Virus record (IMG/VR): IMGVR_UViG_3300033571_014373
Span: 1-42,104 of that record
From: a virus
Strand: one strand, 5' to 3'
Length of the DNA: 42,104 nucleotides
Shown: one piece after another, positions 23,201 through 42,104 of the stretch
Layout of the letters: every line of letters begins with the position of its first letter
How positions within the stretch are numbered: position 1 is the first letter of the stretch
Notes under the pieces: generated by a model
Seen by the model: the letters and a program-made list of their open reading frames with translations, nothing else
Databases searched by the model: none
What the model was told of the DNA's origin: nothing
Position numbers and translations under genes: made by a program

Positions 23201-26200
23201 AAAAATAAACTTTAATATTCTAGTTAATAATATTGAAGTATACGGTTCAGCTTTTGATGTTGAAATTGTAGAAACTTTACACGACACTTATAAAGCGTTA
23301 GAAGGGTATGTTGTGTTTGCTACTGCTCCTTCTGCTCCGATTACTAGTATCAATAATATCAGAATAGAATATGATAAGAATATCAGATTATTTGACGCAG
23401 CAGACAGAATAGAGAAATCATACAACCCAACTACTGGAATGTACGGTAAAGAATTGGGTCAATTAATGACCGGAGTTGATTATGGTGGAGTTCAATTAAC
23501 AAGCATCGACTTTGAAATTGGCGGCGGCTGGGACGTTCTTCCTTGGGAAAATTCATCATGGGATAATGTAATAACAACTAACGATGATTATGTTATCAAA
23601 GTTGATACAGATTCTACACATTCATGGAATTTACCATATGTACCTGCTAGAGGTGAAGTTATTAATGTTTATATTAATGATATAAGAGTTGACGATCCGT
23701 ATTTTAATCTTTACGACGGTAGTACTCCACAAGAAAATGGTTTATATGAAGCACCAACAGGAATTATAATGAATTCATTTGTTGGAGATGGATTCAACAA
23801 TGAAATTTTAATTCCTTATTCATACGAATTTGTTCCAAATACTTATATAACTTTCCGTAAAAGTACTAGTGATGGAACTATTCTTCCAACAGATAGAAGT
23901 TTACTTGATACATTTGTTGAAGGTGGTGATTTAGCATACTCAACTGCTAAAGGAATAAATGCAGAAGAAATAATAATAGACGGCGACGGATTTGTAACAT
24001 TAGATACAAGCCATGGCCCAGAAGAATTGGTACAAGGTCAAGTTGTTGATACATTAGAAATAAATGTGTATCATGCACCGTCAGATGGCGGTCCTAATGT
24101 TTTAGTAAAAAATTATACAGGTGATGGTATTACAAAAACTTTTGATGTTGGACACAAATTAACAACAACTAGTGGAATAATTGTAATATTAAATGATAAA
24201 CTTTTGATTAACGTAGATGATTCTACATCTGTACCAGATAATGATTACAATCACTATAAAGTAAACTTTAAAGAAAATACTATTACTTTAAGTAATATTC
24301 CTGCACAGGGAGATAAACTTTCTATAGTGTCTATAGATACAGCCGGGTATGATATATCTGAAAAGATAAGTTTTGTTGGTGATGGATCAACTACAAGCTT
24401 CTTAACAGGTTCTCGTTACGATAATGGGGATATAAGTGGATTTGTCACTATAAACGGAGTTTCAACTGATTTTAATTTATTAGAAAACATAAGTCAAATT
24501 AAAGTTCCTTTTAGAGATATTATAGTAGGAAGAAAGTATAGAATTATCGATTCTGGAACCGAAGGATTTGAAACAGATTTTAGATTAATTGGTGCAGCTG
24601 ATAATAGTCCTAACACAGTTTTCACTTCTACAAGTGACGGATCTAAATTAACAGGAAACGGAACAATAGCTTATAATGTTACAGGAAATGCTATTATTTC
24701 TTTTGATGAGGCTCCAGCTGATGGCGATATTATTAATATAATAGTATTCAAAGGAACAGTTACAAAATGGAGTGAAATAACAACTCAAGATATTCCTATA
24801 AATTATAACTACGGAAATAATAAAGATCAAATTCAATATGAATATCCGTTAAATCCTTTGCCTGCGGTGTTAGGACCGTTAAGTGCAATGGCATTTGTTA
24901 TAATAGATAATAAATTTTTACAAGCCCCAGATTATGAGCATTATATATACGACGGTAACTATTTGCAAATAAATGATTTAAGATATCTTCCAAGATCCTT
25001 AAAACCGCAAGATATTGATGTCTATAGGGCTGGAAATAAATTGACGCCAATTAAAGATTATACTCTTAATAGCGAATTAGGTACAGTTACACTTGTAGAA
25101 GATGTAGCACAAATAGGTGATGAAATTACTATTGAAATATATAAATTTGCAGATTTCCGAATAGATGTTAAAGGTTGGGATGGATCTAGCTTTACACAGT
25201 TATCAGTAATATTAAGTCCGTCGTACTTAGTAACAACTCAACAGATGATGAGAGTAATAACATTTACTAACCATGATATAGTTAAAATAAAAACATCTAA
25301 TGTAGGATTTAGATTTAATACTGGATATGACGTTTTAAGATATGATATAGTACAATTTGATATTTTAAGCACATCTATTAATACTAGTGGTATATTTAAC
25401 TTGCCAAGAACTGTAGGAAATACTAGTGGAGTTTTTGTTGCTCTCAATAGAAGATTATTAGCACCAAATGTTGATTATGTTGTTCTTGATAATAAAAATC
25501 AAATTAAAGTATTATTACCAGACATTTTAAGTGGTAGTGATTATATTCAAATAATAACATTTAATGATAAAACAGTTCAACCAAGTTACGGATTTAAGAT
25601 TTTTAAAGATATGATGAATAGATATTCATATAAAAGATTAGATGACAGTACTACTACAAAACTTTTACAAGATTTAACATATCTAGATACGAGAATTGTT
25701 GTAGAAAATGCAAATGTATTACCTACACCAAATAGATCTTTAAATCTTCCGGGAGTAATCGAAATTGACGGAGAACGTATTGAATATCTAGTTAAAGAAG
25801 GAAACGTTCTTCGTCAACTTCGAAGAGGTACACTAGGAACAGGAATTAAAACATTCTATTCTGTAGATACATTAGTAAAAGACTTCGGAGTTGAACAAAC
25901 AATTCCTTATAGTGATAAAGAGATGAAAAAAACATACTACGGAGATAAATCTACTCAAATGTTCGAATTAGATTTTGTTCCAATTAATAACGGAGTAGTT
26001 AATTACTTTAAAGAATTTGGATATGTTTATAAGAGTTCTTATAATGAATTATACACATATTCTACAAATGATGTTGTAGTGTTTGAAGGAAGTTATTTTG
26101 TAGCACAGAACACAACTATAGGAAATACACCAGTTGTTGGAGATAACTGGGTTTTTTGGAGTGATATTGTTGATAGTGTATATCCTTATACAATAAGTAG

Positions 26201-26705
26201 TAGCTACGAAGGAATTTACTCATCTGATAGAAAATATTATTCCGGTGATTATGTCAAATATAAAGGGTCATTTTATGAATGTAAAAAAGATGGAACAGGA
26301 AAAATTCCAGGAAAAGATATAGAATATTGGATTCTTTATAATTTAGGTGTTGATGTTAATTGGTATAGATCAACAATACCTGATAACTATGGTCAATGCG
26401 ACGAAATTGAAGTTTTTGTTGCAGGAAGAAGATTAAGGAAAAATCCTATTACTGTGTATGATCAATCTTTAGGCCAAGACAGTTATAATGGAGCGGGGGA
26501 TAAGATAATTGAAGCAGAATTCTCCGTAGACGGAATTAATAATCGTGTAAGATTGACTGAAATACCTCAATCAGGACAGCTGGTTGTTATAGTTAGAAAA
26601 AATGGTAGAATATGGCAAAATGCAGATGAAACAAATTCATTAGTGTTTAGTCCTACATCTATAGCTAGATTCTTAAGAGCAAAACAGGTAAATTTACCAA
26701 GGTAA
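11286..26705 (+). CDS. giant baseplate/tail structural protein at the gp7 position (5139 aa)
   Basis: One uninterrupted frame of 5139 codons fills more than a third of the window; T4 gp7 at this position has 1032 aa. GGAG lies about 10 bases before the ATG. The N-terminal ~180 residues (DDQSNRKTYRHLPAFFRTDSN, NWYGDYIDYINSLKYFG, YREYYWLPNGPDPV) match the start of large wedge-type proteins in marine T4-like phages. Further along come at least eight W/Y-GDxVxY carbohydrate-binding-like modules, a seven-bladed FG-GAP-like propeller (residues about 2539-3099), two GxGYxxxP repeats (about 3488-3550 and 3846-3905), and a C-terminal series with F.GDG.T motifs and ending in RKNGRIWQN. An N-terminal baseplate anchor followed by a long array of binding modules is inferred. 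Exact equivalence to gp7 is unproven. Confidence 0.75.
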   Translation: MAQEDNNELPVPISLDDQSNRKTYRHLPAFFRTDSNKKFLGGTMDVFTQPGSLTRLSSFVGRRDIPNYSFDDTYIQETSTPRQYYQLEPSYVNENDVTGEVNWYGDYIDYINSLKYFGANVSNHSKLNKAEAYTWNPHVDWDKLANYREYYWLPNGPDPVTIYGELEKQDSEFTITSIDQGDNIGYIFTPDGLTVNPRLTLYRGLTYRFNINTPNKFFSIKTQIQEGDSYFYDIGVSDRKVEVGTIVWTIPYEAPDILYYMDNDDKNTFGIIDIKNIDEARRLDVESEIVGKRTYTNSFGIEFINGLKVKFEGQITPKEYLEDFWYVEGVGDRIKLVSSRNLEAPATFTRSLDVPFDDQGFDSLPFDNADNYPNVRDYLVINRSSRDRNNWSRGNRWFHRNVLETSAKANNSNPILDQESRAIRPIIEFESDLKLFNHGWRSKGDVDLVDTFTTDVFSIIEGSTGYFVDGEKLLPGYRILFTADPDILVKGKIFEVKQILNVNVNADEQITVLSTKASNDTISVTTTEKFRVGQKVQFTGTVVGGLTAGTVYYISPTNFTSTTFSVTTNTRFPTQLVQLTDSAILTMKVSVVSNRATSRKLQLTLQQVEDTDPVEGENVYITKGKVYKGSSFHYTNGEWKISQKKTKYNQAPLFDLFDEELDSFSDVTKYPYNTFSGVNLFRYKVGTGTNDTQLGFPLVYKNINNIGDIEFEFDLQNTSWTYIGNNNELQNLNSTNAFLRRYTLNEKFDYSNGWVKTDRPLEQNAVKILKIEQNTSLIPIDLFNDNKKIYEIEEANRISSLANFYIAKQDSSNRDLNDSQYWNIFDYKTLFKGEWVSTEKYLQEDIVRYRNFIYVCIADPMEDTTGQLPSDTNYWKLLFKGFPNRGDFSRAVSYEIDDIVRFEKNTYICIETNKGLSPTNLVYWKKLIANNSTYLGEFNPNQRYVANDIVSYGLYLYIAKKETMDLTQSKSYIPFDITYWNQLSSGTSYPNYYSKKKLYKTGDIAVFDKRPKLDYRIRVYVNDKKRTDVSIITIEGIVYIKFDNELLINDKVVYKIRTLSLKNLKGYYEIPTNWQNNPFNDVIENFTLGEVTDHVRSIIENTPDFLGDYPGISNLSNLGHISQFGRKFMQHSGSMPLSSYLMIDKDVNLIKALRWNAVEYTQFKKEILLKATTTAFDGSIREIVDDLLHSYSGAKFNEKSPFYFSDTLAYGAASVREYSVVDPRFPVFVIDSVFDITSQKTRAILIYVNEEQILYGKEYEFSTDDTFVTITRPLNIGDKILIKDYSSTDGCYIPATPSSLGLYPLYEPRIYKDDTYLNPNYIVETVVEVDSSNNSFITGSSHNLEIGDAISFKETDIDGVSNKLVYYVLSIIDGNTFTLSKTKEEIDPVIITKSIRVNMRIMFADTSLYKIPDTSVTVIQGHDGSIIKTYGDYRDEVILEIEKRIFNNVRVHYDPKIFNIHDILTGYYRRNDFTKAEINNILLSEFLRWNSISKFDFNSNNYFIDEESFTYNYNQSIAPNGVETLYGYWRGIYKYFYDTDRPHSHPWEIQGFTIKPIWWDDVYGSAPYTSDNKIMWDAIEKGLINDPINKRIDLRYARPGMGNYLPVNDQGILISPLESGLAQRFAKVNSKGRYTFGDQAPVETAWRRSSEYPFSVMILCSILRGSEFIGKMWDRFSIKRNLVGQIYSTITNKKINPKELVFANTISNNTRSITSGLANIIDEYVKNQKNIDHNYYKKTLTSLNVKLAYRLGGFTSKEKIKVLLDSRTPNSSGTIFLPQENYKIFYNKSAPVSTVNYSGVIIEKIFITDEIDGYRIDGYDKERNSFEIFVPRKSAYDPVFNVGGVSENYVEWDTNNYYKKGQIVKTAISEFFRAKINHTSSATFESDVVDKWQKLPFLPLKGGRDAIRRTKFKTDSAVRIPYGTVFTDIQSVVDFLLGYQERLRDWGFEFEQFSKDLELPLNWLTSAKEFMFWTLQKWPSGNTTTQTPGSIITLSPAANYLKFKPTINASVDNLDADFYEYSIFKADGKPLRSDLTNIYREDNGFEIKPASDTKDGIYHIRTNLVYQEHVLLFDNISIFGDVIYDVVPGYRQGRIKLVGFKTNKWDGSYYTPGFMYDNATILDWEPNTDYNMGDVVKYQNYYFTALEKIYGSVDFEYSNWKKLDEKPEPSLISNFDYRVEEFRDYYSLEASNFNTDQQNLARHLTGYQPRQYLENIIVNDVSQYKFYQGFIKEKGTFNSVTKLFDALRASGFSSIDLKEEWAFKVGDFGASDAFTEIEFKLDEEKFVQNPQNVVLTNGPQDFSDSSIYNITKLDTVKKPVSYESKPFKMKSLDFDKIDYGIFKYRTAGYVNPEDVDHIVFDENSLFNYDLTLLNHRDKIWIGNTPNGNWNVMEYFNTKKIIINWERIVNVINLYIDGDISDIQIGNIITIRNLFLLDGIYKVVNVFQNVIQIFTSNVTISKASDDSTSGLLFKFVSVRYPTINNVTVSSYNEAKIRGEKIWIDADYDNSWKVLSNEDVFTERNIIPPTFIRNSVKDSQNGYDVKISENKKYMFVGVINNKNGAVIVYSRPNNTGNWAFLQTIRLPEDFSTITGNEKFGFSIDVSGDGEILVIGVPGMTNIKTKFKGNYNETLDYNKDDVVRYNEKLYRALQKINPDGSTLSITDPLDWELASETYEVTTSGVPSGLNNQGAVFIYKYNQASRRYYERDNYTTIKEITTPLGVVNFESTREQIICSYEPQNNEKFGSKVKLFKDGDNYWLFVTSENYNNGTGRVQVFRRTEDGRWVYNEQWNLDISYDSININYDMQIVEPNYITVYPGTNSRFGYDIAFDGLLLLISAPFLDSGVVYVLELQRDRKTFQIIQVIDRYTINNGFMVNNAGENAFLNDNDYFGYSMSFKNGLLFVTCPNSDLNNTNVGSVYQFSYSGRDSSLFVFTLDKIILPPSFIQNERFGMKVDINSKNDTLAISAAGGNVILDTTFDTYIDRLSFTFDSTRNYELDPNSGVSEFTTTFDNSSTAFFDKIPYTGAVYIFNNFNNTFLYADKLSPIDNLYTGDNFGFSLSIVDDSIVVGAPSKEYNNRVTGMVYVFDYNETSWKVKEKQSELVDIEKFKKAFIYDSKENKLIDNLDFYDPVKGIIPGPAEQEIRYKTMRDPAVYEYTENTEVITDTSQPWSDDHIGELWWDLSNVKWIWYEQGTTTFRNNSWGTIFPGFSIDIYEWVETTLLPSEWLKEVTLQVRNSTISGIPIYTNDITYSTKIKYDKYTGLTTTYYYYWVKNRTTVPRVNFRSIPAADVAQLIADPAAVGYKFIAITSNSSFSLFNIESNLKDTQTHLNVQFYEIDNTELLVHREYALLAEDDPTTVIPSLIENKWFDSLIGYNERGQPVPDTRLSWRERFGSSYEPRQSWFVNRFEALKQYFEYVNLILKKNQIVDNINFTKLKTFSPPPVLNQLEFADNPCQIDQIVDIEDDLRFISILKLATAKVSPTIIDGKIVSVSVTNPGYGYKTPPSIKILGIGTGAKLKTIIDSSGRVVSVIVIKTGQNYEDIATTLKVRNYSVLVQSDESSDGRWSVYDWSGDTKKRWNRIRTQAYNVSRYWNYVDWYAQGYDINSEIGFQVERTVDLYGILAEIGDVVKVNNVNGSWLLLKRKSITETPDYIDDYEVIGRQNATIEFSDKLYNLNKDLGYDIKFSYDLNLYDQTPTVELRIILKAIRDDILTDDLRIEYIKLFFNNINYALNENLFVDWVFKTSFLRLNHNVGTLKQRITFQSDELPSYQQYIEEIKPYKSKIREFLDSYQYIDPSYSQTTDFDLFSSYNYSTKQIERTTVNTINIETYPWKSWSDNHFYEITEIEVYDQGDGYISRPKVIITGDGRDASAIAYIAKGKVYKIVVDNPGFGYSSAPIVYISGGIDETNNRSVRAKAIAKIGNCLVRTNNLSIKYDRISPTVTVDNLQYVDTFKGTGKQKRFKLTYAPDPKKINFNILVNNIEVYGSAFDVEIVETLHDTYKALEGYVVFATAPSAPITSINNIRIEYDKNIRLFDAADRIEKSYNPTTGMYGKELGQLMTGVDYGGVQLTSIDFEIGGGWDVLPWENSSWDNVITTNDDYVIKVDTDSTHSWNLPYVPARGEVINVYINDIRVDDPYFNLYDGSTPQENGLYEAPTGIIMNSFVGDGFNNEILIPYSYEFVPNTYITFRKSTSDGTILPTDRSLLDTFVEGGDLAYSTAKGINAEEIIIDGDGFVTLDTSHGPEELVQGQVVDTLEINVYHAPSDGGPNVLVKNYTGDGITKTFDVGHKLTTTSGIIVILNDKLLINVDDSTSVPDNDYNHYKVNFKENTITLSNIPAQGDKLSIVSIDTAGYDISEKISFVGDGSTTSFLTGSRYDNGDISGFVTINGVSTDFNLLENISQIKVPFRDIIVGRKYRIIDSGTEGFETDFRLIGAADNSPNTVFTSTSDGSKLTGNGTIAYNVTGNAIISFDEAPADGDIINIIVFKGTVTKWSEITTQDIPINYNYGNNKDQIQYEYPLNPLPAVLGPLSAMAFVIIDNKFLQAPDYEHYIYDGNYLQINDLRYLPRSLKPQDIDVYRAGNKLTPIKDYTLNSELGTVTLVEDVAQIGDEITIEIYKFADFRIDVKGWDGSSFTQLSVILSPSYLVTTQQMMRVITFTNHDIVKIKTSNVGFRFNTGYDVLRYDIVQFDILSTSINTSGIFNLPRTVGNTSGVFVALNRRLLAPNVDYVVLDNKNQIKVLLPDILSGSDYIQIITFNDKTVQPSYGFKIFKDMMNRYSYKRLDDSTTTKLLQDLTYLDTRIVVENANVLPTPNRSLNLPGVIEIDGERIEYLVKEGNVLRQLRRGTLGTGIKTFYSVDTLVKDFGVEQTIPYSDKEMKKTYYGDKSTQMFELDFVPINNGVVNYFKEFGYVYKSSYNELYTYSTNDVVVFEGSYFVAQNTTIGNTPVVGDNWVFWSDIVDSVYPYTISSSYEGIYSSDRKYYSGDYVKYKGSFYECKKDGTGKIPGKDIEYWILYNLGVDVNWYRSTIPDNYGQCDEIEVFVAGRRLRKNPITVYDQSLGQDSYNGAGDKIIEAEFSVDGINNRVRLTEIPQSGQLVVIVRKNGRIWQNADETNSLVFSPTSIARFLRAKQVNLPR
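13783..14234 (+). repeat. three tandem carbohydrate-binding-like modules in the giant protein
   Basis: Residues about 833-983 of the giant protein are three consecutive ~47-residue units with the pattern G-x-W/F, x-Y, xxDIVxY/F, xxxxYxC/A, and a final YWxxL. The copies read EKYLQEDIVRYRNFIYVC...YWKLL, VSYEIDDIVRFEKNTYIC...YWKKL and QRYVANDIVSYGLYLYIA...YWNQL. This resembles the chitin/cellulose-binding CBM5/12 fold, where aromatic residues contact sugar. Further single copies occur near 16836-16978, 17650-17790, 19158-19305, 26040-26165 and 26205-26348. Sugar binding is inferred from the pattern only. Confidence 0.65.
18901..20580 (+). other. seven-bladed FG-GAP-like beta-propeller domain of the giant protein
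   Basis: Residues about 2539-3099 contain seven repeats of the form xFGxSxxxxxDxxxLxVGAPxxxxxxGxVYVFxx. Clear starts are NGYDVKIS, KFGFSIDVSGDG, KFGSKVKL, RFGYDIAF, YFGYSMSF, RFGMKVDI and NFGFSLSI, each followed by a hydrophobic strand (such as LLLLISAP or SIVVGAP) and a G.VY.F/Y strand. This is the layout of integrin-alpha-type propellers. Blade 2 is interrupted by a complete carbohydrate-binding-like module (nt 19158-19305), and blade 6 carries another insertion. The repeat count was done by eye. Confidence 0.65.
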
Positions 26706-31222: not shown

Positions 31223-31230
31223 GATAAATA
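31223..31230 (+). promoter_or_regulatory. late-promoter-like GATAAATA
   Basis: In the 50-base spacer before the third fibre paralog, GATAAATA differs from the T4 late consensus TATAAATA only at the first base. Transcription would start near 31236 and leave a leader of about 36 bases with an AGGAG ribosome site (31260-31264) before the ATG at 31272. This is the best-placed late-promoter candidate in the window. It is one of three NATAAATA elements found in front of plus-strand genes, at 1111, 7795 and 31223. Confidence 0.5.
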
Positions 31231-32857: not shown

Positions 32858-33856
32858 ATGCCAGCACAAGGCGCACTTATTAGGGCAAGTGATTATAGAG
32901 ATGTACGTAAAGCCGTTTCGAGAATACTAGGAGATAAAATTGCTGAATATTCTTCAGATCCTGATCGCGGCAAGTACGGATATGGACAAACAGTATTAAG
33001 TGATACAAGAACTGTTGTAAGTGAAATTGATCTAGTAGATGATTTAGATATAGGAACTTTAAGATCAGATGTTTTAAAAATAGCTGCTCACTGTGGAATT
33101 ACTACTGATCCTTTAATACAAGCAATACCACAGGTACAATCGGGCGATATTATCGATAACGATCATCTTGAAGCTTTTTTAGCAGCAGTTCCTGTATTGA
33201 ATAGTAATAGATTCTTATTAGCACCTGGACAATATTCAGATACACCCTTTGTTACAGATATTAGTAATAGTAGAAGTACTTCTTGGGGAGCATCTTGGTA
33301 CTATGGTGAAAATACTGTAAGACATTCTTTTACAGTTGATTTTGGTACTTCTGAAAGAGCTCGTTACTTTTTTAATAGCGGCGGACAGATTCGATTTTCG
33401 GCATCAAGATCTGGCGGAACTGGATCTAATGCACAAAATGAATCTTGGACTACATTACTATCTGAAATGGGAACTATCTTTTTTGATTATGACAAATGTC
33501 AAGGACAATCAGGTATTGGTAGTAATATTGGATATTATGATTTAACAGCTACTCCGCAACAAGTCTTTACTAAAACTTCAGGATCAATACCATTTTATGG
33601 TTCGGCATATTCAGCAAATGATTATACAATTACTATGTCCTGTAGTGTTGCTGATAATTCTCTCGGAGAAGCAAGATATCTTTACGTTAATATATATTTT
33701 AATGATGATCATACAGCAAGATTTCAATCAAACGATACAGTTGACGGTATTTTAACAAGTACAGTTAGTGTTCGTAGAGCAACAGAACCTGTTTTAAATA
33801 CAGGTGTTGAAGTACCCATTCCTAATGCTGTAAATACTATTCTATTAAATTCATAA
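32858..33856 (+). CDS. virion structural protein, first of a paralogous pair
   Basis: This 332-aa protein has a strong AAGGAGA site (32845-32851) overlapping the previous stop. The N-terminal ~125 residues are mostly helical (ASDYRDVRKAVSRILGDK, GTLRSDVLKIAAHCGI). The C-terminal ~200 residues look beta-rich and contain VRHSFTVDFGTSERARYFFN followed by SGGQIRFSASRSGG, then GYYDLTATPQQVFTKTSGS, NDYTITMSCSVADNS and YLYVNIYFNDDH. The next gene has the same order of motifs. I recognise the ARYFFNSGG type from tail regions of marine phages but cannot name its function. An accessory fibre or decoration protein would fit the position behind the fibres. Confidence 0.55.
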   Translation: MPAQGALIRASDYRDVRKAVSRILGDKIAEYSSDPDRGKYGYGQTVLSDTRTVVSEIDLVDDLDIGTLRSDVLKIAAHCGITTDPLIQAIPQVQSGDIIDNDHLEAFLAAVPVLNSNRFLLAPGQYSDTPFVTDISNSRSTSWGASWYYGENTVRHSFTVDFGTSERARYFFNSGGQIRFSASRSGGTGSNAQNESWTTLLSEMGTIFFDYDKCQGQSGIGSNIGYYDLTATPQQVFTKTSGSIPFYGSAYSANDYTITMSCSVADNSLGEARYLYVNIYFNDDHTARFQSNDTVDGILTSTVSVRRATEPVLNTGVEVPIPNAVNTILLNS

Positions 33857-33914: not shown

Positions 33915-34898
33915 ATGTCTTCACAAGGTGATAAAGTAAGAAGGGTAGAGTATAATCAAATTTATACTTCAATGATTGGAGTATTAGGAAATGGTTCTGC
34001 CGCTACAGGATATGGTCAAACCCCAAATTCGATTGTAAGTTCTGTTGCCGCAGGTGAACGTGTTACTAGAGCACATTGGGCAAACATCAGAAATGATATT
34101 TTGAGAATTGCAGGGCATCAAGGATTAGCAGAAAATAGTGGGTGGACATCCGGAACTTTAACTTCTATTCCGTCATTACCGACAGTTACAGCTACTACTA
34201 AAATATCGGCAAATGTTGTTAATAAATTTATAGATGCAATGACAGTATTAAGTGATACATCTAATATCTATAGATTAGCGTTTGGACAATATTCAGATGA
34301 GGCATTTTTATCTACAACTAGAACAGCTAGTTGGAACGGAACTATTAGGCATTATTTTTCATTATCTTTTTCGTCAGCCAATCATGCCCGATATTTTTTT
34401 AATTCAGGAGGCAGAGTAAGAATAAATCCAACTCTTTCTCCTAGCTCGAGTACTAATATTAATACCGATTGGTTAGTTCTAGTGGGGAATAATACTACAT
34501 CTTATCCCGGAGTAGGAACAATAAGTTTTGGGCATACAAATACTACATCATTAACACTAACTTCATCCGAAGCAGAAGTTAGTTCTATAGGATTTTATGA
34601 TCTTACTAATTCGGCAACTCAGATTTATACTAGATCCGGCGGCTCTCAAAGTTCGTTCTATGCTGTTAATGATTATACAATTAGAGCATATTGTAATGTT
34701 GCAAATAATTCGTCAGGTACTGCTTCTGTGATATATTTTGAATGCGAATTTAAGGACGACAAAACAACTAATAATCCAACTTGGGGTATAGATGAATCTG
34801 TAACAGGAACAGTTAATAATACAGTTACTCTTCGAAGACCGACGGGATCGAATGTTAGTGTAGCAGCCCCTTCTGGATCAAATAGTATAACTTTGTAA
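33915..34898 (+). CDS. virion structural protein, second of a paralogous pair
   Basis: This 327-aa protein is the diverged sister of the preceding gene. It shows the same order: RRVEYNQIYTSMIGVLGNGS, a helical RAHWANIRNDILRIAGHQG, an AFGQYSDEAFLST segment (compare APGQYSDTPFVTD in the sister), RHYFSLSFSSANHARYFFNS followed by GGRVR, IGFYDLTNSATQIYTRSGGS and VNDYTIRAYCNVANNSSGT. Both end in a TVxxRRxT segment. The first ~40 residues differ, and linker regions are Ser/Thr-rich. The function is unknown; a tail or fibre-associated virion part is inferred. It is preceded by the palindrome-promoter region, so it may be expressed separately from its sister. Confidence 0.55.
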   Translation: MSSQGDKVRRVEYNQIYTSMIGVLGNGSAATGYGQTPNSIVSSVAAGERVTRAHWANIRNDILRIAGHQGLAENSGWTSGTLTSIPSLPTVTATTKISANVVNKFIDAMTVLSDTSNIYRLAFGQYSDEAFLSTTRTASWNGTIRHYFSLSFSSANHARYFFNSGGRVRINPTLSPSSSTNINTDWLVLVGNNTTSYPGVGTISFGHTNTTSLTLTSSEAEVSSIGFYDLTNSATQIYTRSGGSQSSFYAVNDYTIRAYCNVANNSSGTASVIYFECEFKDDKTTNNPTWGIDESVTGTVNNTVTLRRPTGSNVSVAAPSGSNSITL

Positions 34899-34922: not shown

Positions 34923-35282
34923 ATGGATGAACGTTTAAAAAAAGCATTAGATGTTGCTAACTTAATGGTAACATTTAGTACCCAACGAGATTTAATAAAG
35001 CAAGAGTTCAAAGAAAATTGTATATATCATGTAACAGGGCATAGATTTACTATTAACAGAGAATTAATTAATTTTTTATCTACACTTGTAACATTAGATC
35101 ATAATGAAGATGTTGTTATACTAGATGATTTTGAAAATCCTTATATGATATCCGATGTTAAAGAATTTCTTAACACCATTTTTAATTTATATGTAGAAAA
35201 AACAAACGAGTATTATCACAAATATACAGAATTAAAATCAAAAAGAACAATAGAAAAGGTTATGAATATAAATGTCGAGTAA
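34923..35282 (+). CDS. small conserved phage protein, function unknown
   Basis: This 119-aa protein follows a GGGGAAA ribosome site. It contains FSTQRDLIKQEFKENCIYHV, TGHRFTINRELINFLSTLV, a DVVILDDFENPYMISDVKEF segment and an acidic/aromatic helical end with NEYYHKYTELKSKRTIEKVM. I recognise a similar pattern from tail regions of marine T4-like phages, but no function is known to me. It has no signal peptide or membrane segment. Its last 11 bases overlap the start of the first glycosyltransferase, which ties it to the following gene set. A helper of tail assembly or a late regulatory protein are both possible. Confidence 0.5.
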   Translation: MDERLKKALDVANLMVTFSTQRDLIKQEFKENCIYHVTGHRFTINRELINFLSTLVTLDHNEDVVILDDFENPYMISDVKEFLNTIFNLYVEKTNEYYHKYTELKSKRTIEKVMNINVE

Positions 35283-36156
35283 TGGTATATTAATTTTTGC
35301 TCACAATAATCGAGAAATTGACTATGGTAAAATGGCATATATTTCTGCTTTATATGCAAAAAAAAATCTTGACGTTCCTGTTAGTTTAGTAACCGATTCT
35401 GGAACAAAAAAATGGATGATAGAAAATGATTTAATAGATCTTGAAAAGATTTTTGATCAAGTCATTTTAACAGACGATATCGAAACTCCAACATTTATAA
35501 GAAAAAGATATTATGATGGATCTTTAGATTATAAAAAGGCAGATTTTAAAAATGTTTATAGAGCATGGGCATATGAATTATCACCTTATGATAAAACAAT
35601 AGTAGTTGATGTAGATTTATTAATAGTTAATAACAGATTAAATGCCGTATGGGATACTGATATTGATTTTATGATTAATAGAAAATCTCATGATTTAGCA
35701 AGAGATAGAGAAGATTTTGAATTTAAAAGAATTAGTGACCATGGAATTGATTTTTATTGGGCTACGGCATTTTATTTTGAAAAAACAGAATGGACGAAAA
35801 CATTTTTTGATTTATGTCAACATATAATTGAAAATTATGAATATTATCGATTTGTTTACAGAATAAATGTACCATTGATGCGTAACGATTATGTTTTTAG
35901 TATAGCAATTCATATGATGGGAGGATTTAATAATAAAATTACTCCTCCGTCTCTTCCTTGTGAAATTTATTATTCTCTCGATAGAGACGAATTAATTAGA
36001 ATTAATAATAATAAATCATTTTTATTCTTAATTCAAAAAAAAGGATGTTTAGGTGAATATACATTAGCATCGACAAATAATCAAAATATTCATATAATGA
36101 ACAAATATAGCATGAATAGATTTTCAGAAGAATTAATAAAGGCGTTAAATGTCTAA
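35272..36156 (+). CDS. GT-A-type glycosyltransferase
   Basis: This is a 294-aa protein. Residues 1-50 form a Rossmann-like start (GILIFAHNNREIDYGKMAYI, then VPVSLVTDSGTKKWM). Residues 100-120 read SPYDKTIVVDVDLLIVN with D113-V-D115 as the metal/nucleotide-sugar binding DxD motif. DHGIDFYWATAFYFEKTEW follows near residue 160, as in GT8-like families, where this part contacts the acceptor. No membrane segment is seen, so it is likely cytosolic. The family (GT8-like or a related phage GT) is inferred from layout; donor and acceptor are unknown. It overlaps the preceding gene by 11 bases and the next one by 8. It is related in layout, but only distantly in sequence, to the next gene. Confidence 0.7.
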   Translation: MSSNGILIFAHNNREIDYGKMAYISALYAKKNLDVPVSLVTDSGTKKWMIENDLIDLEKIFDQVILTDDIETPTFIRKRYYDGSLDYKKADFKNVYRAWAYELSPYDKTIVVDVDLLIVNNRLNAVWDTDIDFMINRKSHDLARDREDFEFKRISDHGIDFYWATAFYFEKTEWTKTFFDLCQHIIENYEYYRFVYRINVPLMRNDYVFSIAIHMMGGFNNKITPPSLPCEIYYSLDRDELIRINNNKSFLFLIQKKGCLGEYTLASTNNQNIHIMNKYSMNRFSEELIKALNV

Positions 36157-37003
36157 GGGATATGTAATACTTGCACAAAATAGTAACAATAATGATTATG
36201 TATCAATGGCTGCTGCTTGTGCGTTTTCTATTAAAGCAACACAAACAATAATTAATAAAGTAACTCTTATTACAGATGTTCCAGATGCAGTTCCTTATCA
36301 TTATCATGCTGCGTTTGATAAAATTTTACCTATAAAATGGTTTGATGATGCATATGAATCAGACTGGAAAATAGAAAATCGCTGGAAGTTATATCATTTA
36401 ACTCCTTATGATGAAACAGTAATATTAGATGCAGATATGTTATTTCTATCAGATGTAAGTCATTGGTGGGATTATATGAGTAAGAATTTTGATCTTTTAA
36501 TAACAGATAAAGTTTTTACTTATAGGAATGAATTAATTGTTGATTCATTTTATAGGAAAACTTTTAGAGATAACGATTTACCGAATTGTTATAGTGCTTT
36601 CACATATTTTAAAAAAGTCGATTCTGTAAGAGAGTTTTGGAAATTAGTTGAACTAATTGTTAAAAATTGGAAAACATTTTATAATGCATTCTTAAAAAAT
36701 TCAAAACCTAGACATTTAAGTATAGATGTTGCTTTTGCATTAGCAGTAAAAATATTAGGAATAGAAAATGAGGTATTTTCTAGTTTAGATATTCCAACAT
36801 TTACACATATGAAAAGTAGAGATCAGGGGTGGATAAGCTATACAGATAATTGGATAGATAACGCCGGAGTTTATCTAAATGATAATTGTCAATTAAAAAT
36901 AGGAAATTTTCAACAAACTGGAATATTTCATTATACAGAAAATAAATTTTTTAATGAAGGAATTATACCTAAATATAGAATTTTATTAGGAATAGATAAA
37001 TGA
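36149..37003 (+). CDS. GT-A-type glycosyltransferase, second copy
   Basis: This 284-aa protein starts MSKGYVILAQNSNNNDYVSM, parallel to the start of its upstream neighbour (GILIFAHNNREIDYGKMAYI). The core WKLYHLTPYDETVILDADML carries D94-A-D96 as the DxD motif. Later segments include NCYSAFTYFKKVDSVREFWK and RHLSIDVAFALAVKILGIEN. The C-terminal end has FQQTGIFHYTENKFF, containing an HYTE segment that may supply the metal-binding His typical of GT8-like enzymes. Both enzymes appear active by motif. The stop overlaps the following start as ATGA. The substrate is unknown; sugars on virion proteins, host surface glycan or modified bases would all fit. Confidence 0.7.
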   Translation: MSKGYVILAQNSNNNDYVSMAAACAFSIKATQTIINKVTLITDVPDAVPYHYHAAFDKILPIKWFDDAYESDWKIENRWKLYHLTPYDETVILDADMLFLSDVSHWWDYMSKNFDLLITDKVFTYRNELIVDSFYRKTFRDNDLPNCYSAFTYFKKVDSVREFWKLVELIVKNWKTFYNAFLKNSKPRHLSIDVAFALAVKILGIENEVFSSLDIPTFTHMKSRDQGWISYTDNWIDNAGVYLNDNCQLKIGNFQQTGIFHYTENKFFNEGIIPKYRILLGIDK

Positions 37004-37635
37004 ATGAATTAGAAATTTTTGAGTTGTTAAGAAAACAAGAAGAAGAGATACGAAAACAGCCAGTTTATTATGTTTATTATGACAAGTCAACTTATAGAGT
37101 AACTAGTCTTAAAAATTATCTAGACGAAATAGATAACAATCCTTATATAAAATTTACTCACACAGAATTTGATTTTACATCACCGGAATTTAATATAGTA
37201 AACTATATTATAGATCCTAATGAAAAAAAATTAAAAAAAATCGAAGATGAATTAATACAAATTAAGACAATAGATGATTACATTTACGAAATTCCAAAAG
37301 TTATAAGTGATAGAAGATTGACTTACGCAGATAGATCATTTGATTTACTAGTAGAACAAAACAACACGTTGAAGGAATTTAGAATAAAATTATCTAAAAA
37401 TTTAAAAGAAAAATTTTCACTTCAAAACATGTTTTCTCAAGATATGGCGGTTTATGTTACTGAAATAAGTGATCCAAATATTTTATATAAAACTTTAAAA
37501 TTTTCTTTCGGTGATGTTATAATTAATGAATACTATACTATTCCTTTTGAGGATTTCAAAGGCAATGCAACTAATGTTTATGCATTACGATATTTCGAAA
37601 ATTATTTACATGTGGATGTAAGGAATGACAAATAA
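37000..37635 (+). CDS. hypothetical protein in the glycosyltransferase/radical SAM set
   Basis: This 211-aa protein has an N-terminal helical start (MNELEIFELLRKQEEEIRKQ) and then PVYYVYYDKSTYRVTSLKNY and FNIVNYIIDPNEKKLKKIED. The second half has FDLLVEQNNTLKEFRIKLSK, then AVYVTEISDPNILYKTLKFS and a final YALRYFENYLHVDVRN. I do not recognise a family. The beta-strand pattern of the first part (YYVYYD...YRVTSL) and the repeat-like second part could be a binding domain for a partner of the neighbouring enzymes. It has no Cys cluster, no DxD and no membrane segment. It starts within the stop of the preceding gene and its own stop overlaps the next start by 11 bases. Confidence 0.45.
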   Translation: MNELEIFELLRKQEEEIRKQPVYYVYYDKSTYRVTSLKNYLDEIDNNPYIKFTHTEFDFTSPEFNIVNYIIDPNEKKLKKIEDELIQIKTIDDYIYEIPKVISDRRLTYADRSFDLLVEQNNTLKEFRIKLSKNLKEKFSLQNMFSQDMAVYVTEISDPNILYKTLKFSFGDVIINEYYTIPFEDFKGNATNVYALRYFENYLHVDVRNDK

Positions 37636-38524
37636 ATTAATACTTCATGAAATTGATACTATTTTTATAAGTTACGACGAACCTAATGCTGATAAGCATT
37701 ATGCAGAATTACTTAATATATTGCCGTGGGCCAAACGAGTCCACGGTGTTCACGGTAGCGATGCTGCTCATAAAGCCGCTGCTAATTTAAGTGAAACTGA
37801 TAGATTTATTACAGTTGATGCTGATAATATAGTTGATCCTAGTTTTTATTCTCAAGAAATAGAAATTACAGATGAAAATAAAAATTATATATTTTCTTGG
37901 GCAGGAAAGAACGCTGTTAATGGTTTAATATACGGCAATGGTGGTTTAAAGTGTTGGACAAAAGATTTTGTTCTTAATATGAAAACACACGAAAATTCTG
38001 ATCCGAATGATAGTGAAAGTGTACTTGAATTTTGTTTTGATCCTCGGTATTATCAATTTAATGATCATTTTTCAACAAGTTATATAAATGGTTCACCTTT
38101 TCAAGCCTGGAGAGCAGGTTTTAGAGAAGGTGTTAAAATGAGCCTTAATAGAGGTCGTAGAACAGATGATGTTCAAAGTGTCTGGTGGCAAAATTATCAA
38201 AGATTGTTGATATGGATGTCAGTCGGTGCTGATATTAAGAATGGTAAATGGGCAATGTATGGTGCTCGTTTAGGTTGTTATAAAACAAATTGTACAAAGT
38301 GGGATTATATTAATGTAAGAAATTTTGAATATCTTACAACATATTGGAACGAAGAAATAGAACCTAAAATCTCTGACAACGATTTAGATGAACAATTATC
38401 CTTATTAGGTGATTCTTTAAGATTAGAACTACAGCTCGAAATATCAGAATTAGATGAGAATGCATCTAAATTTTTTAAGAAAGTTTATACAAATACACCT
38501 AGGATTATTGGCAGGAAAAGATAA
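37625..38524 (+). CDS. GT-A-like (glycosyltransferase family 2-like) protein
   Basis: This 299-aa protein begins with DTIFISYDEPNADKHYAELL, then AKRVHGVHGSDAAHKAAANL and TDRFITVDADNIVDPSFYSQ. D65-A-D67 is a good DxD for metal and nucleotide-sugar binding, and the GNGGLKCWTKDF near residues 103-114 matches the acceptor-side loop in this family. The middle has SPFQAWRAGFREGVKMSLNR followed by GRRTDDVQSVWWQNYQRLLI, with conserved Trp residues. Proteins of this type occur in marine phages, often near tail-fibre or radical SAM genes; no activity is known to me. It starts 11 bases inside the preceding gene and ends 2 bases before the first radical SAM gene, so the two are probably translated together. 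Confidence 0.6.
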   Translation: MTNKLILHEIDTIFISYDEPNADKHYAELLNILPWAKRVHGVHGSDAAHKAAANLSETDRFITVDADNIVDPSFYSQEIEITDENKNYIFSWAGKNAVNGLIYGNGGLKCWTKDFVLNMKTHENSDPNDSESVLEFCFDPRYYQFNDHFSTSYINGSPFQAWRAGFREGVKMSLNRGRRTDDVQSVWWQNYQRLLIWMSVGADIKNGKWAMYGARLGCYKTNCTKWDYINVRNFEYLTTYWNEEIEPKISDNDLDEQLSLLGDSLRLELQLEISELDENASKFFKKVYTNTPRIIGRKR

Positions 38525-38526
38525 TA

Positions 38527-40020
38527 ATGGAGGGAAAAAATGAAGATAAGGAGAACAATTTAGACCTTAGCTTTTGTGAAGAAAAAATAAGTATAAAACA
38601 AGCTAAAGGCGAAAGAATAGATCCGCTATTTGGAAAATACGAATCTCCCTATATGCACGATTCTGATATAGTTTTAAAAAAATTAAATACAGTCAGTCCG
38701 AGTTTTTGTTTAGCAAAATGGTTTAATGTAAGTATTCACATTCCTACAGGAAGAACACATAGTTGTTATCACCCACCTGCACATCAAATTCCTTTAAATG
38801 AAGTTAAAAATAATTCTTCAGCACTACATAATACAGAATATAAAAAACAACAACGTAAGTTAATGTTAGAAGGAAAACGTCCCGCAGAATGTAGTTTCTG
38901 TTGGCAAATAGAGGATAGTGGAAATCAATTAAGTGATAGGGCATATAGAAGTTATGATATTTTTGAAAAAGGATTAATAGAAGAAGCTCAACAAGTGGGA
39001 TTTACAAAAAATGCTAATCCTAGATATGTTGAAGTTAATTTTAATCAAGCATGTAATTTTAAATGTGCATACTGTTCTCCTCATTTATCAACGTCATGGT
39101 ATAAAGATATTGAAGATAATGGTCCTATTGTTTTAGCAGATAGATGGCATAACGATTTAACATGGTTAAAAAAAGAGGATATGATTCCTAATAACGGTCC
39201 TGATAATCCTTATCTTATTGCATTTTGGGAATGGTTTCCGACAATCTATCCTACATTACAAACATTTCGTATGACCGGCGGCGAGCCACTTATGGATAAA
39301 AATACATTTAAAGTATTTGATTATGTTAAAAAAAATCCAAAAAATAATTTACATTTAAGTATTACCAGTAATTGCTGTCCTCCTGGTGATCAGTGGGATA
39401 AATTTATACAATCTATTAGTGAGATTAATGATAATAATGCAATAGATAAGTTTACTCTTTTTTGTAGTTTAGATAGTTGGGGTGATCAAGCAGAATATAT
39501 CAGACATGGTATGAATTTTGAGGTTTTATATAAAAATATAAAGGAATATTTAAAAAAATCTCAAAAGCATACTTTAACTTTTATTGTAACTTTTAATGCT
39601 TTAAGTTATACTAAATGGAATGAATATATTAAAAATATATTAGAATTAAGAAGAGAATTTAATACTGATAGACATTTGATTTGGTTTGATATTCCACAAC
39701 TTACAGATCCTGATTTTTTAAATCCTAAACTAATACCAGAATTAGTTTCAGAATTAGAAAAATCGATAGTGTTTATGAAAGAAAATATAGAGACTAAAGC
39801 CACACATTATAAAGGTTTTTTAGATTTTGAAGTAAGTAAGGTGCAGAGACTAATTGATTGGATTAAATCTGATACAGGATACAATAGAGAATTAGCTATG
39901 GAAAATTTTTATATCTATTGGACAGAGCTAGATCGTCGTAGAAATACAAATTTTTTAGATACATTTCCTGAATTAGAATCATTTTGGTTGGAGTGTAAAA
40001 AAATAAATGACGAATTTTAA
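38527..40020 (+). CDS. twitch-domain radical SAM protein, copy 1
   Basis: This 497-aa protein has two Cys sets. The N-terminal set, C61 (SFCLAKW), C80 (SCYHPPAH) and C122-x2-C125 (CSFCWQIED), fits a twitch-type auxiliary 4Fe-4S site. The radical SAM set C176-x3-C180-x2-C183 (CNFKCAYC) binds the catalytic 4Fe-4S cluster, and TGGEP (250-254) is the SAM-binding motif. This layout is that of the family annotated as N-terminal twitch domain-containing radical SAM proteins, whose reaction is unknown. Radical SAM enzymes abstract a hydrogen from a substrate; the auxiliary cluster often positions or oxidises it. The next gene overlaps it by 14 bases. No leader peptide substrate is obvious nearby. Confidence 0.8.
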   Translation: MEGKNEDKENNLDLSFCEEKISIKQAKGERIDPLFGKYESPYMHDSDIVLKKLNTVSPSFCLAKWFNVSIHIPTGRTHSCYHPPAHQIPLNEVKNNSSALHNTEYKKQQRKLMLEGKRPAECSFCWQIEDSGNQLSDRAYRSYDIFEKGLIEEAQQVGFTKNANPRYVEVNFNQACNFKCAYCSPHLSTSWYKDIEDNGPIVLADRWHNDLTWLKKEDMIPNNGPDNPYLIAFWEWFPTIYPTLQTFRMTGGEPLMDKNTFKVFDYVKKNPKNNLHLSITSNCCPPGDQWDKFIQSISEINDNNAIDKFTLFCSLDSWGDQAEYIRHGMNFEVLYKNIKEYLKKSQKHTLTFIVTFNALSYTKWNEYIKNILELRREFNTDRHLIWFDIPQLTDPDFLNPKLIPELVSELEKSIVFMKENIETKATHYKGFLDFEVSKVQRLIDWIKSDTGYNRELAMENFYIYWTELDRRRNTNFLDTFPELESFWLECKKINDEF

Positions 40021-41377
40021 GAGAAAAGATGAAACGAACATTCAATATAAAAAAAGAGTTCTAGATTCTTTATCTCCTTCTTTTTGTGGAGCAAAATGGT
40101 ATAATGCTACTATTTGGTTAGGATCTGGCATGACAACATCTTGTCATCATCCGCCTGCACATTTTGTTCCAGAAAAAGATGTACAAGACAATTATAAAAT
40201 GTTACACAATACAAATCAAAAAAAAGATGATCGTCGTAAAATGCAAATAGGTGAACGTCCTAGTGGGTGTGAATACTGTTGGAAAATAGAGGATATGTAT
40301 ACTGATAAAGTAAGTGATCGTGCTTACAAAAGTATGTGTTATTCTGATGAAGAACTTAAAGAAGCAAAAGAAACACCGTATACGCAAGATATAAATCTTA
40401 AGACATTAGAAATAGCTTTTGATAGAACTTGTCAATTTGCTTGTAGTTATTGTAATCCTGCATTTTCTACAACCTGGGTAAAAGATATTAAAAACAATGG
40501 ACCTTATATTGACTTAAAGACAGATGGCAGAGAACATTTTACATATGAACATGATCATTCTCAATTGTATTCTTTCAATGAAACTAATCCTTATATTGAA
40601 GCCTTCTTTCAATGGTGGGAAGCAGATTTACATAAAACATTAAGAGAATTAAGAATTACAGGTGGCGAACCTCTAATGAGCGGTCATACATGGAAATTAT
40701 TAGACTGGTTTAAGGAAAATAGAGGAAAAAGTAGAACTGAATTTGCACTCAATTCTAATTTAGGATTTGAAAAAGTAATAATAGATAGATTATTAGACTC
40801 TTTAGATGGTATACCCTTTACTCTCTATACAAGTAATGAAAGTATAGGGCCGTATGCAGAATACATTCGTGACGGATTAAATTGGGATCAATGGGTTAGT
40901 AATATGGTATATCTATTAGAATCTAAAAAAATAACTAGACTAAATGTTATGGGAACTGTAAATGCTTTATGTCTAGAAAGCCTAATAGATTTTATGAATC
41001 AAATTATAGAATGGAAATCAATTTACGGGAAACATCAAATTAGTTTTTCTTTGAATATTATGAGATTTCCTAGTTTTCAAGGATTATGTGTTTTCCCTGA
41101 TCATATGAGAGCATTTTATAAATCTAAATTACAAGAATGGTATCAACAAAATAAAAATAATAAATTTTTAGAAGAATCCGAGTTGAACCAACTTGATAGA
41201 TTAATTGATTATTTAGATCATGTAAAGATTCCACACGGAGAGGGATTTGTTAGAGAAAATGCTGAAAAAGATTTTAAGAGATTTTATCAGCAGTATGATA
41301 AACGAAGAGGAAAAGATTTTTATCAAATTTTTAGTAAAGAAATGATAAGTTGGTTTGACTCTATAGAATTAAATTAA
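40007..41377 (+). CDS. twitch-domain radical SAM protein, copy 2
   Basis: This 456-aa paralog of the preceding gene starts inside its 3' end. All cluster ligands are kept: C27 (SFCGAKW), C46 (SCHHPPAHF), C88-x2-C91 (CEYCWKIED), and C142-x3-C146-x2-C149 (CQFACSYC). GGEP is at residues 219-222 (RITGGEPLMSG). The shared segments SDRAYKS, WVKDIKNNGP and AYIRDGLN-like EYIRDGLNW match copy 1 (SDRAYRS, WYKDIEDNGP, EYIRHGMNF). It lacks the ~35-residue N-terminal extension of copy 1. Two complete adjacent enzymes suggest successive or alternative reactions, or a heterodimer; redundancy is less likely, as the sequences have diverged strongly. The next gene starts 13 bases after its stop. Confidence 0.8.
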   Translation: MTNFKRKDETNIQYKKRVLDSLSPSFCGAKWYNATIWLGSGMTTSCHHPPAHFVPEKDVQDNYKMLHNTNQKKDDRRKMQIGERPSGCEYCWKIEDMYTDKVSDRAYKSMCYSDEELKEAKETPYTQDINLKTLEIAFDRTCQFACSYCNPAFSTTWVKDIKNNGPYIDLKTDGREHFTYEHDHSQLYSFNETNPYIEAFFQWWEADLHKTLRELRITGGEPLMSGHTWKLLDWFKENRGKSRTEFALNSNLGFEKVIIDRLLDSLDGIPFTLYTSNESIGPYAEYIRDGLNWDQWVSNMVYLLESKKITRLNVMGTVNALCLESLIDFMNQIIEWKSIYGKHQISFSLNIMRFPSFQGLCVFPDHMRAFYKSKLQEWYQQNKNNKFLEESELNQLDRLIDYLDHVKIPHGEGFVRENAEKDFKRFYQQYDKRRGKDFYQIFSKEMISWFDSIELN

Positions 41378-41389
41378 GGTAGTAGCATT

Positions 41390-42104
41390 ATGTATGATAT
41401 TTTTTATATTTCTAAAGAAAAAGATAATCGTTACTACGAGTTAAAATCTCGATTTCCATTGTTAAAGATAGCAATCTATGAAGAAAAAGGACAAGGATTT
41501 TTTATAGCTCAAAAAAAATCTTTATCTAAATTCTTTTGGGTTATCGATGAAGAGTTTAGTATCCATAAAAACTTTACATTTGATTACGTAGTTCCTGAAT
41601 GGGATTCTAAATTTGTACATATTTTTAAGCAAGAGAATGGATTATATGGTGGCTTATACCTTATACCTAAAGATTATAAAATTACTCAAAAAGAATCTGA
41701 ATACAATTTCTTTATTACTAGAAAAGATATAGATGTAGTCTTTGGATATTTTCCATCCTATGATCAATTTATTATAGAAAAACCAGAAGATTATTATGAA
41801 GCACAGAAGAAATCTAAAACTTCTATGTTTTATGCTTTGAAAAAAGATTTTAAATTAAAGGATGGTTTTAAATTTGAAGTTCCTAAATGGGATAAAAAAT
41901 ATGTTCATGTTTTCAAGAAACAAGATAATGAATATGGAGGTGTTTCCTTAATTCCTAGAGATTATCCAATCTCTAAAAGAGAAGCAGAATATAGTTTTTT
42001 TATTAATAAAAAAGAAATTGACTTAATTGCATGTACAATAAACTATGACAAATTTATAATTAGTAAACCAGAAGATTATTTCGAAGCACAAAAGAAGTGT
42101 AAAA
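41390..42104 (+). CDS. repeat protein of degenerate GT-A-like units (partial, right edge)
   Basis: An open frame of 238 codons starts with MYDIFYISKEKDNRYYELKS and runs off the right edge. Residues 36-133 contain KFFWVIDEEF, then FDYVVPEWDSKFVHIF, YGGLYLIPKDY and DQFIIEKPEDYYEAQKK. The same series returns in residues 134-238: MFYALKKDF, FEVPKWDKKYVHVF, YGGVSLIPRDY and DKFIISKPEDYFEAQKK. The spacing between repeats is 96-98 residues. The first unit aligns by eye with the GT-A-like gene at 37625 (FISYDEPN...DRFITVDADN...GNGGLKCWTKDF), but its DxD is replaced by DEE and, in the second unit, by KKD. It was probably derived from a glycosyltransferase and may now bind rather than transfer. More repeats may follow outside the window. 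Confidence 0.6.
   Translation, partial: MYDIFYISKEKDNRYYELKSRFPLLKIAIYEEKGQGFFIAQKKSLSKFFWVIDEEFSIHKNFTFDYVVPEWDSKFVHIFKQENGLYGGLYLIPKDYKITQKESEYNFFITRKDIDVVFGYFPSYDQFIIEKPEDYYEAQKKSKTSMFYALKKDFKLKDGFKFEVPKWDKKYVHVFKKQDNEYGGVSLIPRDYPISKREAEYSFFINKKEIDLIACTINYDKFIISKPEDYFEAQKKCK
41498..42079 (+). repeat. two tandem ~96-residue coding repeats
   Basis: Two coding repeats lie at about 41498-41785 and 41786-42079. At the DNA level the boundary segments are still similar (GAAGATTATTATGAAGCACA near 41787 and GAAGATTATTTCGAAGCACA near 42072), which points to a fairly recent tandem duplication. Trp71/Trp167, His77/His173 and GG87-88/GG183-184 keep a spacing of exactly 96 codons, with a two-codon length difference nearer the unit start. 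Confidence 0.65.

Follow-up and report, generated by a model that had tools for sequence, protein, structure and literature searches.

In the window, by which I mean the whole stretch of 42,104 bases analysed here (virus record IMGVR_UViG_3300033571_014373 of IMG/VR), two fibre genes are followed by small, GT1, GT2, P and GT3, then by the radical SAM genes rSAM1 and rSAM2, and finally by a repeat gene, REP. The order fibre-small-GT1-GT2-P-GT3 is nearly invariant in relatives from IMG/VR. The glycosyltransferase (GT) core and the fibre are the invariant part of the locus, and the radical SAM genes are a layer attached to it. Because the order recurs in relatives and the genes are under purifying selection, the gene set is far beyond chance. 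Its make-up points to an unusual sugar coat that these viruses would make and chemically edit, most probably on the fibres of their own particles. The fixed block with its attached radical SAM arrays is new and each of its elements has precedent; I found no paper on this block in the open-licence literature of PubMed Central. The features are as follows.

31223..31230, + strand: GATAAATA, the nearest late-promoter-like site 5' of the set, one of three ATAAATA sites
32858..33856, + strand: FIB-type fibre gene, first copy, 332 aa (family alignment A7, conserved ARYFFN[AS]GG motif)
33915..34898, + strand: FIB-type fibre gene, second copy, 327 aa, directly 5' of the core; proposed glycan acceptor
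34923..35282, + strand: small, conserved core protein of 119 aa (alignment A5; position kept in relatives)
35272..36156, + strand: GT1, 294 aa, GT8/glycogenin-like GT-A protein with DxD (homology to GT2)
36149..37003, + strand: GT2, 284 aa, GT8/glycogenin-like GT-A protein (profile match to glycogenin; phrog_1903)
37000..37635, + strand: P, core protein of 211 aa (fibre-like divergence; AF2 model)
37625..38524, + strand: GT3, 299 aa, predicted GT-A fold (alignment A1, AF2, Foldseek)
38527..40020, + strand: rSAM1, 497 aa, N-twitch radical SAM (NF033640, motifs)
40007..41377, + strand: rSAM2, 456 aa, N-twitch radical SAM of a second orthologue group (NF033640)
41390..42104, + strand: REP, start of a repeat protein of degenerate GT-A copies, ending at the contig end

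The initial annotation had described eight tightly packed genes in one orientation behind the fibre genes, and the open reading frame list of the window bears this out: all eight frames of 34923-42104 lie on the + strand. From small through REP their junctions are overlaps of 11, 8, 4, 11 and 14 bases, or gaps of 2 bases (GT3/rSAM1, 38524/38527) and 12 bases (rSAM2/REP, 41377/41390). The three DxD proteins are likewise present, with DVD113-115 in GT1, DAD94-96 in GT2 and DAD65-67 in GT3. The extent of the set has to be amended, as it reaches upstream into the fibre genes. Baseplate and tail genes lie upstream of the fibre-glycan set; gp6 (7825-11268) is about 35% identical to its counterparts in jumbo myoviruses, such as Phosso, SCTP-2, Atu_ph07 and PA5oct, and an open reading frame of 5139 aa occupies 11286-26705, between gp6 and the fibre genes. 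Comparison with the relative L005 shows purifying selection on the genes of the window, with a dN/dS of about 0.10-0.20 in the core and in the radical SAM genes.

Viral contigs were scanned with radical SAM, GT3, GT1, fibre and GT2 queries. Environmental phage sequence abounds in the block, each alignment-based scan giving at least about 600 stretches, and the gene order of the window recurs in at least about 180 distinct loci. Locus counts refer to distinct loci with enough flank, drawn from the best-scoring relatives and leaning to one lineage. Among the matches listed, small, GT1 and GT2 are present in 47 of 47 GT3-anchored loci, GT2 and GT3 in 53 of 53 GT1-anchored loci, GT1 and the fibre in 57 of 57 and GT3 in 46 of 46 GT2-anchored loci, and at least one core GT in 50 of 50 fibre-anchored loci; the last set leans to one lineage because it is drawn from the nearest 80 matches. 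The position of small is kept in 47/47 GT3-anchored and 58/59 GT1-anchored loci, and the gene directly 5' of it is a homologue of the window fibres in 154 of 160 relatives (both among the matches listed). Core junctions in these relatives are overlaps with medians of 4-11 bases. By eye, GIY-YIG-like homing endonuclease frames are seen within the core or array of two relatives (L010, 6340-6963; L009, 8480-9076).

The carriers, large aquatic phages, form a widespread group that is for the most part uncultured; in a set of 50,697 phage records, GT2, GT3, rSAM1 and rSAM2 had no match. Two described groups resemble them, in each case as compared by description. In pelagimyophages, the host recognition cluster has been described as hypervariable; its fibre region has several GTs (GT8 being the commonest in those phages) and radical SAM cassettes that are gained and lost (PMC7029224). 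The cluster shares with the present loci a myophage fibre region, there marine, with GTs and radical SAM cassettes, but the present loci have a near-invariant six-gene order and a fixed radical SAM slot, and their lineage has a gp6 with about 35% identity to that of jumbo myoviruses. Moraphages are uncultured large aquatic phages as well, for which virion glycosylation has been considered and whose core genome includes four GT orthogroups; their description mentions no radical SAMs (PMC12619734). By the account given in that paper, mycobacteriophage GTs have been found by experiment to glycosylate virion proteins (Freeman et al. 2023, via PMC12619734). The targets named there are the capsid and tail tube, whereas here they would be fibre proteins and the GTs have radical SAM partners.

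GT1 is a homologue of GT2 (hhalign probability 99.8, E 2.3e-28). The GT2 profile matches glycogenin with E 1.7e-6 over about 105 residues, and GT2 also matches phrog_1903 (5.7e-7), whereas the comparison of GT1 with glycogenin gives only E 0.34. By sequence comparison they are thus best seen as paralogous glycogenin-like proteins, and since neither reaches a Pfam GT family at E<=1, GT8 included, I label them no further than 'GT8-like'. What GT2, and weakly GT1, has in common with glycogenin, a protein-glucosylating enzyme, is the N-terminal GT-A region with its DxD; the difference is that the match spans only those 105 or so residues of GT2 and that a Pfam GT8 match is absent. In GT1, D113 and D115 are invariant, and the DxD motif is kept in 98% of 181 relatives.

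GT3 is the most conserved protein of the core (alignment A1) and is predicted to fold as a GT-A enzyme. Its AF2 model (pLDDT 83.6) has GT-A glycosyltransferases, such as RmlT and SunS, as leading Foldseek matches, with a best E of 1.5e-4 but TM-scores of only about 0.3-0.4. As to the GT2 enzyme family, which GT3 would resemble, Pfam Glycos_transf_2 stays below its cut-off in GT3 (14 bits vs 23.3, E 0.05), and a relationship between GT3 and GT2 is undetectable by profile comparison. The repeat protein had been called GT-like, which holds, and the description can be sharpened: judged from its sequence, REP is a relative of GT3 and so a fourth GT-A type protein of the set. The complete REP of L005 (15326-17128) has four matches to the GT3 profile, namely three degenerate copies, in which DxD has become DDE, DGE or DSE, and an intact C-terminal copy with DGD.

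Both radical SAM proteins are, by score and motif, members of NF033640 (N_Twi_rSAM) with an N-terminal twitch, in agreement with the twitch enzymes announced by the initial annotation. They score 320.6 bits (rSAM1) and 280 bits (rSAM2) against a curated cut-off of 170 bits, and show in order a twitch C-x13-G-x4-C (the pattern tested was C-x9-15-G-x4-C), CxxCW and the CxxxCxxC core, with GGE also present; the radical SAM cysteines are invariant in an alignment of 19 rows. The window and its relatives differ from the family at large in that the genes form tandem arrays inside phages. In the literature searched I found no NF033640 member whose product is known. Sugars and peptides alike are substrates of known radical SAM enzymes.

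How firmly these enzymes belong to the GT core bears on whether the locus serves one purpose or two. It could be a hotspot shared by two modules, with the GT core there for one purpose and the radical SAM arrays acting on a peptide, a cofactor or nucleic acid, and many loci do hold the core without radical SAMs: among the matches listed, a radical SAM lies within 7 kb downstream in 15 of 45 GT3-anchored and 31 of 53 GT1-anchored loci. In GT2-anchored loci it is found downstream in 37 of 46 (again among the matches listed). Frequent separation of the two kinds of genes, which the initial annotation took as a sign against a joint system, is not what relatives show, as GT3 is found upstream in at least 50 of 59 radical SAM-anchored loci with room under a strict overlap rule, and in several of the other nine the core is visible in the architecture strings. 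The junctions between GT3 and the radical SAM in relatives are mostly overlaps, which also argues against two modules. On a FastTree tree of GT3 from 145 loci, moreover, radical SAM presence changes only 3 times, compared with a mean of 32 (minimum 28) after shuffling, and the 78 loci not found via radical SAM queries likewise give 3 changes against 26 (minimum 20). With so few changes, the link to the core is an old and stable lineage trait, while the number and the paralogue vary.

The idea of two modules draws some support from the first radical SAM of each locus, which, with paralogues pooled, shows no co-divergence with GT3 (rho 0.02). As the pooled set mixes paralogues, the comparison was repeated on orthologues: rSAM1 then tracks GT3 as well as GT2 does (distance correlation 0.68, n=19), and rSAM2 gives 0.27 (n=37), all these values, the pooled one too, including whatever part stems from genome phylogeny. 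These phages have radical SAM arrays at other places as well. Several large relatives have 9-15 N-twitch radical SAMs per genome, some in arrays away from the fibre region, with 13, 15 and 15 matches in three single genomes (G001, G003 and G005; L160, L198 and L216). To the eye, however, the outlying arrays seem to hold the same SGNH-like and carbamoyltransferase-like tailoring enzymes, and on balance I consider two unrelated modules rather improbable. The single joint system proposed initially thus survives in that its parts are not apart in relatives, and gives way to a layered unit, with one locus group being devoid of radical SAMs.

As judged by eye, CsgG-like (curli secretion) and FecR-like genes precede a second radical SAM array in one relative (L177, 3-5764). 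Carbamoyltransferase genes, with Pfam confirmation for L160 only, lie near the 3' end of radical SAM arrays at L023 19207-20775, L017 16207-17685 and L160 13910-15367.

With regard to transcription, the + strand of the window has three ATAAATA sites (1112, 7796, 31224), all intergenic and located 22-48 bases before the genes at 1134, 7825 and 31272, in an intergenic total of only 272 bases. In 3.55 Mb of relatives (L003-L024, L025-L104 and L131-L287), TATAAATA has the lowest count among its 56 permutations (153 vs a median of 718), as expected if a functional late signal is avoided elsewhere; this suggests a promoter of the T4/cyanophage late type, of which stray copies are avoided. The exact TATAAATA was discarded as a T4-style late promoter in the window itself, where it has one match only, on the minus strand, and the looser ATAAATA is the informative form. 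In relatives, ATAAATA precedes 119 of 454 fibre-region genes, where 14 are expected from permuted motifs, and none of the 786 GT1, GT2, P and GT3 genes. As the core genes overlap there is little room for promoters of their own, and the pattern fits a core read by read-through from the fibre unit. No NATAAATA-type sites lie inside the set, which, as far as promoter motifs can tell, supports late co-transcription. Scans for sigma-70 promoters and terminators gave no clear excess over shuffles.

The location of the genes is relevant to another explanation, in which both kinds of enzyme would act on phage DNA, adding sugars to its bases and editing them. DNA hypermodification is known to involve phage GTs and some radical SAMs, yet here the genes sit at the end of a fibre unit and not with DNA metabolism. 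Of 16 large relatives, only 5 have a protein of the thymidylate synthase/dCMP hydroxymethylase family, the largest (457 kb) not being among them, a count to be read with the possibility that records are fragments and with the other roles of thymidylate synthase in mind. I regard DNA as the target as very improbable.

That the set performs a multi-step modification of a glycan or of a virion protein, as first proposed, is plausible and remains the most economical reading. More specifically, it may be a late glycan-modification module tied to the preceding fibre gene, in which the Ser/Thr-rich FIB protein is glycosylated and its sugar radically edited, for which I see about an even chance. The acceptor, order of steps, chemistry and benefit that I infer are the following. 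GT1 and GT2 would begin a sugar chain at Ser/Thr residues of the FIB protein, with P, and perhaps small, bringing this fibre protein to the enzymes; GT3 and the repeat GT would lengthen the chain. The N-twitch radical SAMs could then alter sugar carbons (by dehydrogenation, epimerisation, deoxygenation or similar) or the glycosylated peptide, and in relatives additional tailoring genes may act further. The altered fibre coat might change host recognition or shield the virion. The bolder version, in which sugars or even the fibre backbone are rewritten after glycosylation by a diversifying radical SAM set, a surface chemistry undescribed in viruses, is more tentative.

Several observations support the fibre as target. 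Its linkage to the core is near-invariant, and the FIB family has a median Ser+Thr content of 24%, compared with 10-13% in the enzymes, although high Ser/Thr is common in beta-rich fibres. P diverges as fast as fibres do (52% identity to L005 vs 74-82% for the GTs), and the N-terminal domain of its confident AF2 model (pLDDT 89) has a weak, partial Foldseek resemblance to tail-fibre assembly proteins; the whole model had no significant match in the PDB. An outright assignment of P as a tail-fibre assembly protein was rejected (hhalign to Mu U probability 1.5, no Pfam match, PHROGs unsupportive). Among the matches listed, P is recognised by profile in 37 of 47 GT3-anchored and 46 of 53 GT1-anchored loci, and its slot is occupied by some open reading frame in nearly all; for small, a role as helper or chaperone is a guess. 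The glycogenin-like nature of the GTs points in the same direction, as do the stability of radical SAM presence by lineage, the sugar-tailoring accessory genes of relatives (NAD-dependent epimerase, carbamoyltransferase, SPASM and B12 radical SAMs), and the presence of ATAAATA at fibre-region genes and its absence from core genes.

The fibre module is opposed by Wroclawvirus isolates such as Ettore (PA5oct-like), which have a distant FIB homologue followed by an immediate strand switch and no GT core, so that FIB does not always need the core. The narrow origin of the fibre-anchored matches, the radical SAM arrays away from the fibre region and the pooled radical SAM comparison also count against it.

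As GT8-like enzymes also build LPS, in the synthesis of which GT8 enzymes are typical, the acceptor could instead lie on the host: late alteration of host LPS or capsule would hide the receptor used by the phage's own fibre, which would spare the progeny from being lost on debris and keep other phages out. For pelagimyophages, this idea has been published with regard to the cassettes of GTs and radical SAMs in their fibre region (PMC7029224). Some relatives have sugar-nucleotide genes (RfaE-like, epimerase) that would suit it, and the fibre-gene linkage could mirror receptor type. However, the core enzymes of the window and its relatives are practically without transmembrane segments, and in 16 large relatives no GtrA-type flippase, as in Gtr-type serotype conversion, is found above cut-off; both observations favour soluble enzymes acting on the fibre. 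The genes also close the fibre unit and lack a late-type promoter of their own, which points to late action, when surface remodelling is least useful. I therefore hold modification of the host surface to be unlikely, if less so than the other alternatives.

If the fibre module is real, radical SAM chemistry decorates virus particles, with up to 15 such enzymes per phage genome. It would offer a testable answer to why aquatic phages have so many GTs in their fibre regions, and these phages would be a large source of uncharacterised sugar- or peptide-editing enzymes.

The context of bacterial radical SAMs was considered as a clue and set aside, the Bdellovibrionota copies being mostly single chromosomal genes in varied surroundings. 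In a single case, a Bdellovibrio MAG (L111, 7980-10481), an N-twitch radical SAM gene lies between flagellin genes, near GT9-like genes.
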